From: Williamsia maris
GTDB taxonomy: Bacteria > Actinomycetota > Actinomycetes > Mycobacteriales > Mycobacteriaceae
Direction of reading: 5' to 3'
Assembly: GCF_024171815.1 (NCBI RefSeq)
Contig: NZ_JAMTCJ010000001.1
Coordinates: 806,001 to 870,000 of the forward strand
Length of the DNA: 64,000 bases
Part shown: positions 26,068 to 34,822 of the stretch, piece after piece
Numbering within the stretch: position 1 is the stretch's first letter
How the letters are laid out: every line of letters starts with the position of its first letter
Made by a program: the position numbers and the translations under genes
Notes under the pieces: generated by a model
Seen by the model: the letters and a program-made list of their open reading frames with translations, nothing else
Database searches by the model: none
What the model was told of the DNA's origin: nothing

Positions 26068-27585
26068 ATGAGTCATGTGATCGTCATCGGCGCCGGTGTC
26101 GGCGGCCTCGCCGCGACCACCCGCCTTGCCGCGATGGGCCATCGCGTCACCCTTGTCGAGCAGGCCGCACAGGTGGGCGGCAAGCTCGGTCGGGACGACA
26201 TCGACGGGTTTCTGTTCGACACCGGCCCGTCGCTGCTGACGCTGCCGCAGGTACTCGCAGAACTGTTCGGCGCCACCGGCGCGCCCCTGGCCGAGTCCGG
26301 TATCGACCTGCAACGCCTCGACATCGCGTGTCGCTATCGATTCCCCGACGGCGCCACCGTCGACCTGCCCGGCGACATGGACGCGATCCCCGGCGCGCTC
26401 GACGCCGCTCTGGGTGCGGGCCGCGGCGCGCAGTGGTCGGCCTTCCTCACGCGGGCCGCACGCATCTGGGACGTCACCGAGCAGCCCTTCCTGCGCTCCC
26501 CCATCGACGTGGGCACGATGGTGCGACTCGCGCGCAGCCTCGCCGATGTGGTGACCGTCGCGCCGTGGCGATCGCTGCGCGGCATCGGCGCGCGGCACCT
26601 GTCGGATCCGCGTCTGCGCATGCTCCTCGATCGGTACGCCACGTACACGGGCTCGGACCCGCGGCGCGCACCCGCCGCGCTGGCCACCGTCCCGTACGCC
26701 GAACAGGCCTTCGGGTCCTGGTACATCCCCGGCGGCCTCTACCGGCTCGCCGAAGAGCTCGTGGCCCGCGCGGAAGCCCTCGGGGTCGAGGTCCGCCTCG
26801 GGACCGAGGTGGCCGAGGTGCTCACGTCGTCGACCGGGGTGCGAGGCGTGCGACTGACCGACGACACCGTGATCGACGCCGATGTCGTCGTCGCCAACGC
26901 CGATGCGCGTGTGGTCTATGAGCAGCTGTTGCCCGCGCCCGACAGGGCGACGCGCGCGGTGGCCCGCCGAGTGCGGCGCTCGACGCGATCGTTCTCGGGG
27001 TTCGTGTTGCTGCTGGCCCTCGACGACGCCCCGTCCGATCAGCCCCACCACACTGTGCTCTTCGCCGACGATTACGACGCCGAATTCGACGCGGTCTTCG
27101 GTCGAGGCGGTCCACCGCGTCCCGTGCACCGACCGACGGTCTACATCAGCGCACCCAGCGATCCTGCCGTCGCACCAGAATCGGGTAGCGGCGCATGGTT
27201 CGTCCTGGTGAATGCCCCACCCCACGACCCGGACGGTGGCACCGACTGGGATGCGCCCGGTCGGCGCGAGAGCTACGCCGACCACATCCTGGATGTGATG
27301 GCCGATCGCGGCGTCGACATCGCCGACCGCATCCGACACCGACGCATCATCACCCCGGCCGATCTCGAGCGCCGGACCCACACACCGGGCGGGTCGATCT
27401 ACGGCACCGCGTCCAACAGCGCGTCGGCCGCGTTCCTCCGTCCGGCGAACCGCTCGCCGGTGCCGGGCCTGTACCTGGTCGGTGGGTCGTCGCACCCCGG
27501 TGGCGGGCTACCCCTGGTGATGATGTCGGCCGAGATCGTGGCCGCCATGATCGGCCCGGCCACATCCCCGCCGAAAGTGCCCTAA
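26068..27585 (+). CDS. CrtI-like phytoene-desaturase-family FAD oxidoreductase
   Basis: This 505-residue flavoprotein begins with the dinucleotide-binding motif VIVIGAGVGGLAATTRLAAMG. It continues with TGPSLLTLPQVL and ends with the family's C-terminal signature LYLVGGSSHPGGGLPLVMMSAEIV. The family desaturates, isomerises or oxidises carotenoid precursors. ATG 26068 has AGGAG 10 nt upstream. The final codons, PPKVP and the TAA stop, lie inside the first unit of the repeat island that begins at 27568, so the natural C-terminus may have been rewritten by that repeat. No other carotenoid gene is adjacent apart from the UbiA gene. Confidence 0.85.
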   Translation: MSHVIVIGAGVGGLAATTRLAAMGHRVTLVEQAAQVGGKLGRDDIDGFLFDTGPSLLTLPQVLAELFGATGAPLAESGIDLQRLDIACRYRFPDGATVDLPGDMDAIPGALDAALGAGRGAQWSAFLTRAARIWDVTEQPFLRSPIDVGTMVRLARSLADVVTVAPWRSLRGIGARHLSDPRLRMLLDRYATYTGSDPRRAPAALATVPYAEQAFGSWYIPGGLYRLAEELVARAEALGVEVRLGTEVAEVLTSSTGVRGVRLTDDTVIDADVVVANADARVVYEQLLPAPDRATRAVARRVRRSTRSFSGFVLLLALDDAPSDQPHHTVLFADDYDAEFDAVFGRGGPPRPVHRPTVYISAPSDPAVAPESGSGAWFVLVNAPPHDPDGGTDWDAPGRRESYADHILDVMADRGVDIADRIRHRRIITPADLERRTHTPGGSIYGTASNSASAAFLRPANRSPVPGLYLVGGSSHPGGGLPLVMMSAEIVAAMIGPATSPPKVP

Positions 27586-27655
27586 CCATCCGCCGAACGT
27601 GCCCTAACCAACCGCCGAACGTGCCGAAATGACCCGTCGAACGTGCCGCTCCTGG
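27568..27655 (-). repeat. Left array of four 22-nt repeats
   Basis: Units lie at 27568-27589, 27590-27611, 27612-27633 and 27634-27655. Each begins CCGCCGAACGTGCC or a close variant; two continue CTAACCA. Read on the minus strand, they match the right array. The first unit includes the stop codon of the CrtI-like gene. Confidence 0.85.
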
Positions 27656-27903
27656 CGCCTGACGGCGAAAAGATGCTGTGGACGGAGTCGGGTGACGCGC
27701 AAGTTCCGGTCCCGGCTCGCGTTCGCACACTCCTGTGTCGTTCGCACGGTTGTGTGCTGTTCGCATCGCGCCGGGAGCGTGCGAACAGCACGTGACGATG
27801 CGAACGGCACGACAGGGTGCGAACGATTACCCGGCACGCGAACGCACGCCGCACCGGACTTCGTCCTCAGCATCTTGTCGCCGTCAGGCGTCAGGAGCGG
27901 CAC
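27643..27903. repeat. Core inverted repeat with 36-bp arms and 19-nt subrepeats
   Basis: Positions 27643-27678 and 27868-27903 are inverted copies of each other with 34 of 36 matches. Between them, GTTCGCA begins at 27721, 27740 and 27759, each 19 nt apart. The inverted form TGCGAAC begins at 27780, 27799 and 27818, and CGCGAAC at 27837, again 19 nt apart. At the centre, 12-bp perfect arms (GTGCTGTTCGCA at 27754-27765, TGCGAACAGCAC at 27780-27791) flank a 14-nt loop. Confidence 0.88.
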
Positions 27904-27946
27904 GGTTGGAGGATGGTTGTCGGCGGCCTGCTCGGCGGGCGGTTTC

Positions 27947-28100
27947 GGCACGGTCGGCGGGCGGTTACGGCACGGTCGGCGGGCGGTTACGGCACGGTCG
28001 ACGGGTGATTTCGGCACGTTCGACGGGCGGTTACGGCACGGTCGGCGGGTTGTTTCGGCACGTTCGGCGGGTGGTTAGGGCACGGTCGGTGGATGGCGCG
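27947..28100 (+). repeat. Right array of seven 22-nt repeats
   Basis: Units start at 27947, 27969, 27991, 28013, 28035, 28057 and 28079. The consensus is GGCACGGTCGGCGG followed by GCGGTTAC; the first two units are identical, and the later ones vary at a few positions (GTTCG for GGTCG, TTTC for TTAC). Partial units precede it at 27900-27946. At 22 nt, the period is close to two helical turns. Confidence 0.9.
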
Positions 28101-28124: not shown

Positions 28125-28370
28125 ATGACTACTTCGAACAACAGTTCGACCCCCGATGAAAGCGGCGAGGTTCTCGGAGCCGACGCCGGAAACACCACCG
28201 AGAAGGATCCGTCGAACTGGGTGACCGGTGACGAGCCGATGACCGGTGCGCAGCGCAGTTACCTCGACACCCTCGCCCGCGACGCAGGCGAGACCATCTC
28301 GGCCGATCTCAACAAGGCGGAGGCATCCGAGGAGATCGATCGACTGCAGGGCAAGACCGACCGCGGCTGA
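28125..28370 (+). CDS. DUF3072 domain protein
   Basis: This 81-residue protein has a disordered acidic N-terminus (about residues 1-28). The DUF3072 core NWVTGDEPMTGAQRSYLDTLARDAGE follows, then SADLNKAEASEEIDRLQ. The family is common in actinobacteria and has no established function. It sits directly downstream of the palindromic repeat island, which must contain or adjoin its promoter. It is convergent with the dehydrogenase-like gene, with 1 nt between the stop codons. Confidence 0.85.
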   Translation: MTTSNNSSTPDESGEVLGADAGNTTEKDPSNWVTGDEPMTGAQRSYLDTLARDAGETISADLNKAEASEEIDRLQGKTDRG

Positions 28371-31294: not shown

Positions 31295-34200
31295 TCAGAG
31301 CAGTCCGAGCACCTCGAGGTTGGTGGCGTACTTGACGATGATCTGCGGCGTGATGTGCGGGATGTCCTTGTCGGGACCGATCTTCGCGTCCTGGACCGCC
31401 GCGCGGAACCGATCGGTCGGCGCCATCGCCCCGTTGAGCGGCGGCACGGGCTGCTGGTAGTTGTGCAGCAACGGCAGCAGCGACGCGGACCGCTGCTTGG
31501 CGGGCAGCGCGCGGACCGCGGTCTCGAACCGCTGGAGCCAGGTGTCGTAGGAGTCGACACGCTGGATCGAGTACCCGGCGTCGACCAGCCAGTCGACGAA
31601 CTCGTCCTGACCGATCCCGTCGTCGTACGGGTTCATCACGTGGTACGTCTCGAACCCGTCGAGCAGCTGGACCGACAGGGTGGAGATCGCCTCGGAGATG
31701 AAGTCGACCGGCAGCCCGTCATAGTGTGCGCGTTGACGATTGCCGTCGGCGTCGAGGTCGTAGAACGACTTCGGCGCGACGCCGGTGGCCACCAGGCTCA
31801 GCATCAACCGGGTGAACATGTCCGGCACGTTGAGCTGACCGACGAACTGGGTGTCGGCCAGGATCATGTCGCAACGGAACACCGCGACCGGCAGGCCACA
31901 CAGGTCGTGGGCCTCCCGCAGCAGCACCTCGCCCGCCCACTTGCTCGTGCCGTATCCGTTGGCGTAGGTCTCGTCGACCGCGCGGGTGGCGCTGATCTCG
32001 CGGATGTCGGCGTCCTCGACGAACGCCGAGGCCGGCTCGATCCCGCCCCCGACACCGATGGTCGAGACGTAGGCGAACTGCTTGAGCTTGCTGGTCAGCG
32101 CGATGCGGATCAGCTCGGCCGTGCCCAGGGCGTTGGGGCCGAACAGCTGGGCGTACGGCAGGACGTGGTTGACCAGTGCGGCCGGGTCGACGATGAGATC
32201 GACGGTGTCGGCGATGCGCTGCCACGTCTGCGTGTCGAGGCCGAGGTCGGCCTCGCTCTTGTCGCCGGCCACGACCTGGAGGTGCTCGGCGGCGAGCTTC
32301 TGGTAGCGCGCCAGCAGTTGCGGGTCGCCGCTGTCGAAGGTGGCGTCGAGTCGAGCCCGGGCGGCCGCGTCGTCCTTGGCGCGCACGATGCAGATCAGCG
32401 TGCCGTCGACGAGATCCATCCGCTCGAGCCATTCGAGTGCGAGGAACCGCCCGAGGAAGCCGGTCGCACCGGTGAGCAGGACGGTGCGGACCTGCTCGCT
32501 GGGCCGCGGCAGGTTCGGCGCCGCGGCGATGGTCGCGTCGTCGAGGAACTTGTCCAGGGTGAGGTCTCGTGCGTGCACCTCGGTCGCGTCGGCTCCGTGC
32601 ACCGTCGCGAACGTGGGTCGGGTCGCGCCCGAGGTCCGCTCGTTCTCGATGTACTCGGCGATGGCCGCGAGATCGGCGGCCGGGTTGACGATGACGCCGA
32701 CGGGGACCTCGATGTCGAAGATCTCGCGCAGGAGGTTGGCGAAGGTCACCGCCGACAGCGAGTCACCACCGAGATCGGTGAAGTGCGCGTCCGCCTGCAC
32801 ATCCGAGGCCGATGCACTGAGCAGTGCTGCGGCTGCTCGGCTCACGGACTCGAGAACCGGTGCGCTGTCGCCGTCGCGGCGCAGCGCCTGCAACTCGTTG
32901 GTCTGACCGTCGGCGAGATCGGCGTACCGCTGTTCGAGCGCCTCGCCGTACTGCTCCTTCAACCGCGGACGCGCCAGCTTGCGGATACCGGTCAGCAGAC
33001 CGTTCTCCAGCGTGAACGGCGTTGTCTCGACGATGAAGTCGCGCGGGATCTCGTAGGACTGCAGGCCGGCGGCCTTTGCGGCCCGCTGCACGGACTCGCC
33101 GAGGATCGGCTTGACCGCGTCGACGTCGCCGTCGACCTGGGCCAGGGCGTCGTCGGTCGGCACGATCACGGCCAGCAGGAACGCGCGGGCGGAGTTGCCG
33201 TAGATGTAGATCTGCCCGATGACCGGGCTGTCGGCGAAGACGGCCTCCACTTTCGACACCGTGACGAACTCACCCTGGGAGAGCTTGAGGACGTTGTTGC
33301 GACGGTCGAGGTAGACCAACTGGTCGGGTCCGGTCTCGGCGACCACGTCACCGGTGCGGTAGTAGCCGTCCTCGTCGAAGACGTCGGCCGTGGCGTCGGG
33401 ACGGTTGAAGTAGCCCGGGAACATGGTGTCGGACTTGACGAGCAGCTCGCCACGCGGGTTCGGGCGATCGGTACGGAAGTACCCGAGATCGGGCACGTCG
33501 ACGAGCTTGTAGTCGACCACCGGCGGACGACGCACGGCTCCGTCGATGAACACCATTCCGGCCTCGGTGGATCCGTATCCCTCGACCAGGTGCAGTCCGA
33601 GCAGCGATTCGACGAACGCAGTCATCTCGGCGGAGATCGGCGCCGAACCCGTCAGTGCGGCAACGTATCGGCCGCCGAGCAGGTTGTCGCGCAGGTCCGC
33701 CGAGACCGCCTCGCTCGCGGTGGCCTCGTCCCCACCCGCGTTCACGCGACGGCTCAGGGCGCTCTGGTGCTCGGTGAAGATCATCTCCCAGATGCGGGGG
33801 ACGAAGCTGAGCAACGTCGGCCGCACCAGCGCCATGTCCTCGAGGAAGGTCGACAGGTCGCTGGTCGCGGCGAAGTAGGTCGTACCGCCCGACGCGAGCG
33901 TCTCGAACAGGATGTGTCGCCCCATGACGTGGCTCATGGGCATGAAGCTCAACGTGATCGACGGACCGGTGGTGCCCTGCGCACCGACCATGTTCGTCGA
34001 CCGCCGCCATGCGTTGGTGACCAGGCTCTCCGGGTACATCGCGCCCTTGGGACGGCCGGTGCTGCCCGAGGTGTAGATCAGCAGCGACAGCGGATCGCCT
34101 TCGCCCACAACGGGAACCGGTCCGGTCACGGCAGACTCGCCGCGTGCGATCACGTCGGCCAGGGTCTCGACGGTCACCGCGTTCTTGCCCTCGGCGAGGC

Positions 34201-34822
34201 GTCGCTGCGCACCGGCGACCGCGTCACGGTGGTCGTCGACCTCGGAACGCAGATCGAACACGACCAGCCGGGCGAGTGCTCCGCTGTTCGCGCTGAGCTC
34301 GACCGCGTCGTCGAGGCGGTCGACGCTCGCGGCGATCAGGGTGGGTTCGGTCTCGTCGACGATGGGTTGCAGCTGGGTCAGCGGCGCGCTGGTCTGCAGC
34401 GGGACACACACCGCACCCAGGAGCACGGTCGCCATGTCGATGACCGTGTAGTCGACACTGGTGAAGCCCAGGACCCCGACGCGGTCGCCGGGCGACACCG
34501 CGCCGCCGGCGAGCGCCGCGGCGACCGAACGCACTCGGGCCCACAACTCGCGGTAGGTGATGGTCTCGAAGCGCGGCAGCAACGTGGTGGTGGTCCGACC
34601 CGATGCCGGGTCGGTCACGAGGTCCACGGCGCGCGCACCGAGGGCGGGCCGATCGGCGTAACCGTCGGCGAGGGTCTCCATGATCTGGGCGAGTCGCAGC
34701 GACGGCTCGTTGACCGCTTCGGTCACGGCATCGTCGGGAAGAGCGGCGGCGAACTGCGGGTCGTCACGGACCAGATCGGCAATGCGTCGGGCGAGTTCGT
34801 CGTCCTGGGTATCGATCGACAT
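31295..34822 (-). CDS. car: Carboxylic acid reductase (adenylation - carrier - thioester reductase)
   Basis: This 1175-residue multidomain enzyme reduces carboxylic acids to aldehydes using ATP and NADPH. The adenylation domain has [11 protein letters not shown] at residues 250-260 and GYGSTEAG later. The carrier domain has LGGDSLS with the phosphopantetheine serine at residue 688. The reductase domain has [11 protein letters not shown] near residue 780 and YGTSKWAGE near 955. Length and order match Nocardia-type CAR. The carrier must be charged by a phosphopantetheinyl transferase, which is not adjacent. ATG 34822 has AAGGAG 7 nt upstream. It is divergent from a lipid-type operon beginning with a related NAD-binding reductase. 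Whether its natural substrate is a fatty or an aryl acid cannot be told here. Confidence 0.95.

Follow-up and report, generated by a model that had tools for sequence, protein, structure and literature searches.

Opposed 22-nt and 19-nt repeat arrays in Williamsia suggest a dispersed repeat system linked to putative AbiEi-like nuclease genes

The window, a 64,000-nt stretch of the Williamsia maris genome, contains a 533-bp island (27568-28100) with nested mirror symmetry about a centre near 27773. The island and its two flanking genes are laid out as follows.

26068..27585, plus strand: upstream gene, FAD-dependent amine oxidase/phytoene desaturase-like
27568..27647, plus strand: left 22-nt array, core CCGCCGANCGTGCC read on the plus strand, 3.6 copies
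27642..27715, plus strand: left inner arm, type A
27721..27765, plus strand: left 19-nt array, GTTCGCA at 27721, 27740 and 27759
27766..27779, no strand: 14-nt centre of the 19-nt family
27780..27843, minus strand: right 19-nt array, TGCGAAC at 27780, 27799 and 27818, CGCGAAC at 27837
27831..27904, minus strand: right inner arm, type A here and type B in the G005 orthologue
27899..28092, minus strand: right 22-nt array, core read on the minus strand, with units that are weak at 27899 and 27925 and become clear at 27947
28125..28370, plus strand: downstream gene, DUF3072 small protein

The island is a composite of two dispersed families, with 22-nt units on the outside and 19-nt units (GTTCGCA-N12) on the inside. 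The initial annotation had described opposed tandem arrays of both kinds, and both are borne out: the left 22-nt array faces a main repeat stretch of 7.2 copies at 27932-28089, with weaker units beginning at 27899, and the GTTCGCA and TGCGAAC repeats oppose each other about the same centre. The inner arms are 74 nt long and 82% complementary. The 36-bp arms, reported to match at 34 of 36 positions, hold for W. maris, where the best 36 positions differ at two by inspection, but are absent from the related genomes G001 and G005. The island is indeed flanked by two genes, but it does not lie wholly between them: the left array overlaps the 3' end of the upstream gene, whose TAA stop codon (27583-27585) falls within the first 22-nt unit. 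We agree with the earlier reading that the island is neither an insertion sequence nor a coding region, and that it is not a CRISPR array: the tandem units are opposed, and no cas gene was found among the seven window genes scanned. Searches of Rfam gave three matches up to an E value of 1, all far under the gathering scores, and phage sequences gave no match to the island. The one plasmid match fell within a Streptomyces coding gene (69.9% identity) and was set aside. Elsewhere in the window, a large gene at 31295-34822 encodes AMP-binding, phosphopantetheine and NAD_binding_4 domains and resembles a carboxylic acid reductase.

In W. maris, G001 and G005, the island is present between the upstream gene and the DUF3072 gene. 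These two genes match at different places in G002, G004, G006 and G007, no DUF3072 gene is among the matches listed for G003, and in all five of these genomes the upstream gene has no island after it. The flanking genes are thus separated, and lack the island, in distant congeners; the island therefore lies at a lineage-specific rearrangement. The inner arms are both of type A in W. maris, B on the left and A on the right in G001, and A on the left and B on the right in G005, while the orientation of the loop is unchanged despite the differing arms. This pattern indicates that species have exchanged arms while the loop kept its direction. Within each of the two sister islands the arms do not match (scores of 16 in G001 and 14 in G005; shuffled maximum 15.5). 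Because arm types differ among the three genomes, the strong arm match in W. maris is recent and local. Separately, the record L101, titled Kitasatospora arboriphila NRRL B-24581, carries near-Williamsia muralis sequence after the amine-oxidase gene (by inspection), which suggests that it is mislabelled or contaminated.

The island family is not single-copy and, in the Rfam, phage and plasmid searches, corresponds to no known annotated element. At least 53 BLAST matches in the W. maris genome were grouped by us into at least 26 islands, a lower bound, with 40 of 125 candidates scored. Of these islands, 25 carry 22-nt units and one (C1:575039) carries 19-nt units alone; an additional array at C2:183850 stands outside the 26. 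Both families recur in all eight genus genomes searched. Island matches were found in 7/7 congeners (lowest in G004) and in 15/41 genomes overall; outside the genus, they came from G017 of the W. muralis group (19 matches), G023 (4 weak matches) and five genomes of other families with 1-3 weak matches each. These copies across genome and genus support a non-autonomous dispersed repeat, one of the options that the initial annotation had raised. That annotation did not note the division into two families, the position at gene ends, the spread through the genus or the copies that enclose a nuclease-like gene. In 400 kb of evenly spaced W. maris sequence there was no 22-nt array, only six isolated intergenic hits with two mismatches, so a larger single-copy count reflects coding background; an estimate of hundreds of single 22-nt copies, made with an unfair reversed-pattern control, was withdrawn.

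The 19-nt family is similarly concentrated in the genus. The motif GTTCGCA-N14-TGCGAAC occurs at 3-10 sites per genome in 8/8 genus genomes and at one site each in 4/143 other family genomes; W. maris has four exact centres. A third family, GTTGGGC with a 21-nt period, follows the same design as the other two. Its pair matches number 24-132 per genus genome on both strands, versus 0-2 for the reversed control, and 1-2 in 4/33 genomes outside the genus; a subtype with the core AGTTGGGCA is found in 4/8 genus genomes and 0/33 others. The short core CCGAGCGTGCC was uninformative across the order, most genomes showing a similar excess, and periodic arrays in other genera were of mixed quality and are kept as a lead only.

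Between W. maris and G001, island positions are conserved. The window island apart, 17 of 25 W. maris islands have both flanks among the G001 loci compared, and all 17 counterparts carry units, though their lengths differ: 16 have 22-nt units and one has 19-nt units. Present-day mobility is therefore low. Of the 13 G017 islands tested, none has both flanks in common with a W. maris island, and one has a single neighbour gene in common. At one convergent junction compared across eight genomes, two-sided arrays are present in W. maris, G001 and G002, a one-sided array in G007 and about one unit in G003 and G005; G004 has another hairpin there, and G006 about 1.5 kb of different sequence.

The arrangement of the units is strict. 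Two-sided 22-nt islands are head-to-head in 31/31 cases (13 in W. maris, 9 in G017, 8 in G001, mostly orthologues of W. maris islands, and 1 in G003), the same mirror order as in the window. Neighbouring units lie 22 nt apart in 99/107 intervals of the W. maris genome, and we concur with the earlier description of arrayed sites with a period close to two helical turns; the corresponding family in G017 has a 21-nt interval in 83/84. In the 19-nt family, 56/66 same-orientation neighbours are 19 nt apart, a spacing that is fixed although the spacers have diverged, and facing exact GTTCGCA/TGCGAAC pairs enclose a 14-nt centre in 20/21 cases among the genus loci examined. No set distance separates the two 22-nt arms. 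Back-to-back 22-nt core pairs from a permissive scan (up to three mismatches) were taken as chance hits because array-level scans found none.

Both families lie outside genes, for the most part close to gene 3' ends. On gene calls from our own codon model, 11 of the 26 W. maris islands occupy convergent junctions, 14 tandem and one divergent; among the remaining junctions that measure 30 bp or more, 6/114 are convergent. In evenly spaced stretches, arrays with a period of 17-24 nt were found at 4/14 convergent, 3/124 tandem and 0/46 divergent junctions. The 19-nt elements examined (21) are all intergenic, though less strictly placed: 6 at convergent, 12 at tandem and 3 at divergent junctions. 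In 12 of the 25 W. maris islands with 22-nt units, all units at the junction point the same way. By our reading, single-orientation arrays at tandem junctions read in the sense direction in 5/7 cases in W. maris and 3/4 in G017; these cases are too few to establish a bias, and some are halves of gene-bracketing pairs. At another convergent junction (L190:636-972; G000:C3:400001-420000), an opposed array with a 21-nt period is flanked by two copies of one hairpin that resembles an ordinary intrinsic terminator, so arrays can coexist with terminators.

Some opposed arrays enclose a gene. We picked 14 loci where opposed arrays lie 0.4-1.0 kb apart; each has one called gene between the arrays, and 12/14 are at convergent junctions. 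Pfam searches on 10 of these genes matched five to MTES_1575 REase/DUF559 and five to other proteins, namely DUF308 (twice), flavin reductase, DUF11 and bestrophin-like proteins (L329, L334, L337, L328, L066). For MTES_1575, G017 L233 alone scored above the curated cut-off of 38.2 (42.6), the other matches ranging from 23.8 to 36.5; the DUF559 cut-off of 20.6 was exceeded in L327, L233, L188 and L333. PADLOC recognized AbiEi-like N-termini in 6/6 proteins submitted. L200 and L181 match neither MTES_1575 nor DUF559; G007 L200, a protein of the 19-nt family, has no Pfam match at all but was recovered by our own profile (E 2.5e-24) and by PADLOC as AbiEi. The PDB holds no relative of the nuclease-like protein by sequence. 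In an alignment of eight proteins, D221, D234, G235 and H239 are invariant in the C-terminal part, and we infer that they are catalytic. The probable enzyme thus combines an AbiEi-like N-terminal part with a MTES_1575/DUF559 C-terminal part of the PD-(D/E)XK type. The annotated records examined name these proteins only as hypothetical, DUF559 or AbiEi antitoxin-domain proteins, and no description of their linkage to repeats was found in the literature searched, most subscription papers lying outside its scope.

The same array family stands on both sides in 9/9 nuclease loci of the genus and G017, a biased set, since these loci were reached via their arrays. Units of the 21- and 22-nt families read toward the nuclease gene from both sides, and the 19-nt family places a two-armed element on each side. 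CCGNCGA arrays accompany the W. maris, G001 and G017 nucleases of the 22-nt clade (clade support only 0.606), and CAGTTGGGCACGTAA arrays accompany a clade from W. maris, G001 and G004 (support 0.964). Arrays of GTTGGGCC are found with W. maris L326, GTTGGGC[GA] arrays with G007 L339, and GTTCGCA with G007 L200, a member of another subfamily. These pairings indicate that the repeat core follows the nuclease clade. The W. maris gene for the nuclease-like protein of the 22-nt family lies near 64.5 kb of C2.

As an unbiased set, we took 14 relatives chosen by protein similarity alone: L181 and L188 of W. maris, L252 of G015 and 11 from a plasmid collection. The bracket score compares the left 260 bp with the reverse-complemented right 260 bp; gene limits were estimated for L345, L346/L358 and L356. 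Eight of the 14 relatives exceed the maximum of 16 in a background of 649 genes, drawn from Williamsia and four same-family genomes and not from Arthrobacter or Collinsella.

Tsukamurella: L342 47.5, L347 28, L344 18
Arthrobacter: L356 36, L343 24, L345 23.5
W. maris: L188 19.5
Collinsella: L357 22.5
Not above 16: L181 8, L252 8, L348 11.5, L349 11, L350 12, Nonomuraea L346/L358 14.5

Four of the six non-bracketed relatives (L181, L348, L349, L350) belong to one subfamily or its likeness, and none of 14 Tsukamurella genes in the neighbourhood scores above 12. Among the loci chosen by their arrays, 6/7 are above 16; the W. maris locus at C1:1102k scores 15 despite its array bracket. A weak nuclease relative in G015 (genus g9) lies about 2 kb from a convergent junction with an opposed 19-nt array, core CGTGCTGGCGAATCTAGAC (L252:14632-15528). 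Several of the plasmid-collection relatives come from records that resemble chromosome contigs deposited as plasmids. The Tsukamurella tyrosinosolvens NCTC13231 'plasmid' records (L344, L347, L354) contain the housekeeping genes purB, gatA and ftsH and so look like chromosome contigs.

A similar linkage of repeat and nuclease is thus seen beyond the genus: in Tsukamurella, in Arthrobacter, which belongs to another order, and in Collinsella, a member of another class. Searched against 72,556 plasmid records, five bracket repeats from outside the genus each gave hits solely in the organism they came from (17, 7, 30, 12 and 12 places, counting the copies beside the gene itself). In the Tsukamurella family with 17 places, 4/4 copies examined lie between convergent annotated genes; in another family, one copy directly follows a stop codon.

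Could the island instead be a long RNA hairpin that acts as a bidirectional intrinsic terminator? It folds far better than any of 100 dinucleotide shuffles (z = -20.85), islands sit at gene ends, 8 of the 11 convergent islands leave at most 16 bp on either side, and the sense strand has a folding advantage of 48 kcal/mol at the window and 20 kcal/mol at the G001 orthologue. Yet just 7/12 tandem islands fold better on the sense strand, and the single-orientation islands and the unmatched arms of G001 and G005 do not fit a paired stem. The cores of opposite arms have an identity of 0.774 inside islands versus 0.789 between islands (permutation p = 0.99 for higher identity), and the 19-nt spacers give 0.461 versus 0.457; no conserved stem pairing between arms was found. 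A U-tract follows the stem at 3/22 gene ends of convergent islands, compared with 2/20 at array-free convergent junctions. With opposite arms matching no better within than between islands, the comparison indicates that the island is not a conserved hairpin. The large RNA hairpin of the initial annotation, taken as a conserved function, is thus not supported by cross-arm identity or by the swapped arms, and we regard a hairpin terminator as very improbable here. In Tsukamurella and Arthrobacter, however, some of the brackets are genuine short hairpins, and a terminator reading may apply to those. Two further candidates were rejected. Rho loading on a C-rich sense strand would suit just the 22-nt units; by inspection, neither the 19-nt units nor those of the GTTGGGC family are C-rich. 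The ClgR operator consensus, as quoted in PMC2905415, does not match the N14 spacing.

Alternatively, directional arrays of protein-binding sites might stop RNA polymerase at gene ends, the nuclease genes being merely one sort of gene insulated in this way. The excess at convergent junctions, the proximity to stop codons, the lack of arrays at divergent junctions in the sampled stretches and the five non-nucleases among the ten bracketed genes tested are all consistent with such punctuation, as is the precedent of phage stoperators, asymmetric sites oriented with transcription. It does not account for the head-to-head order that persists at tandem and divergent junctions, nor for arrays that are present, shrunken or lost at a single junction across eight genomes, and it gives no reason to expect brackets around the nuclease relatives of Tsukamurella, Arthrobacter and Collinsella; we consider it unlikely. 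Neutral repeats that spread through slippage during replication and through ectopic recombination, without a dedicated enzyme, would explain changes in copy number and the exchange of arms between close species, but the strict spacing, the conserved cores and the linkage to cognate nucleases make this reading highly doubtful.

We therefore favour, as somewhat likely, the view that the island, in which two families are nested, is a nuclease-less, non-autonomous member of a dispersed repeat system with a putative AbiEi-like/MTES_1575-DUF559 enzyme. The AbiEi-like domain would bind the conserved core at fixed spacing, and the nuclease domain would cut or nick between facing arrays. Repair from array-bearing copies could then spread, expand and shrink arrays and exchange arms, with gene ends tolerating the inserted copies. 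Such a partnership would resemble REP/RAYT or homing systems but rest on a different enzyme; a function for the host, for example in separating transcription units, may have been added.

REP/BIME elements and REPINs with RAYTs are likewise extragenic inverted repeats, present in many copies per genome and favouring the 3' ends of genes. The RAYT is a Y1 transposase whose gene is flanked by its own REP repeats. The Williamsia families share the dispersed extragenic inverted repeats, and an enzyme gene flanked by its own repeats is also found (8/14 in the unbiased set), although the enzyme differs. The placement of REPs at gene ends is described in PMC1590033. A Y1 transposase (PF01797) was detected in 0/8 genus genomes by a search that was positive in 5/14 control genomes. 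Instead, the Williamsia enzyme is AbiEi-like with MTES_1575/DUF559, and the repeats are 19-, 21- or 22-nt arrays and not single hairpins. We rate the system as new because its enzyme and its repeat architecture are both unlike REP/RAYT; more cautiously, it could be a variant form of repeat-plus-enzyme systems.

Other comparisons are less close. Tn7-like ends carry several binding sites of roughly 22 bp, inverted at the two ends; in Williamsia, by contrast, unit number varies and most of the islands examined contain no gene. Mycobacteriophage stoperators are short asymmetric intergenic sites whose orientation correlates with transcription (PMC9283540), whereas the Williamsia units are tandem, head-to-head, chromosomal and dispersed, without a known repressor gene. 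The TAACTGA heptamers of Beggiatoaceae are abundant intergenic direct repeats; in the main genome described, most lie just upstream of start codons, and there are 169 direct sets and one inverted (PMC4679880).

Taken together, the results suggest an unrecognised repeat-and-enzyme partnership in actinobacteria. In its general form, which we hold to be an evenly balanced proposition, paralogous AbiEi-like nucleases with DUF559/MTES_1575 domains would each maintain and spread their own dispersed family of opposed repeats across actinobacteria, as a counterpart of REP/RAYT that is unrelated to it; the enzyme's recognition core and the repeats would co-evolve, and the window island would combine two of these families. 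The dispersed opposed repeats offer a testable substrate for these uncharacterised nuclease-like proteins. Should the enzyme prove not to act on them, the strict spacing, order and core conservation of the repeats would call for another binding protein. If it does, the linkage would explain otherwise anonymous palindromes between actinobacterial genes, and would be an independent case of a genome keeping an enzyme and its repeats together.
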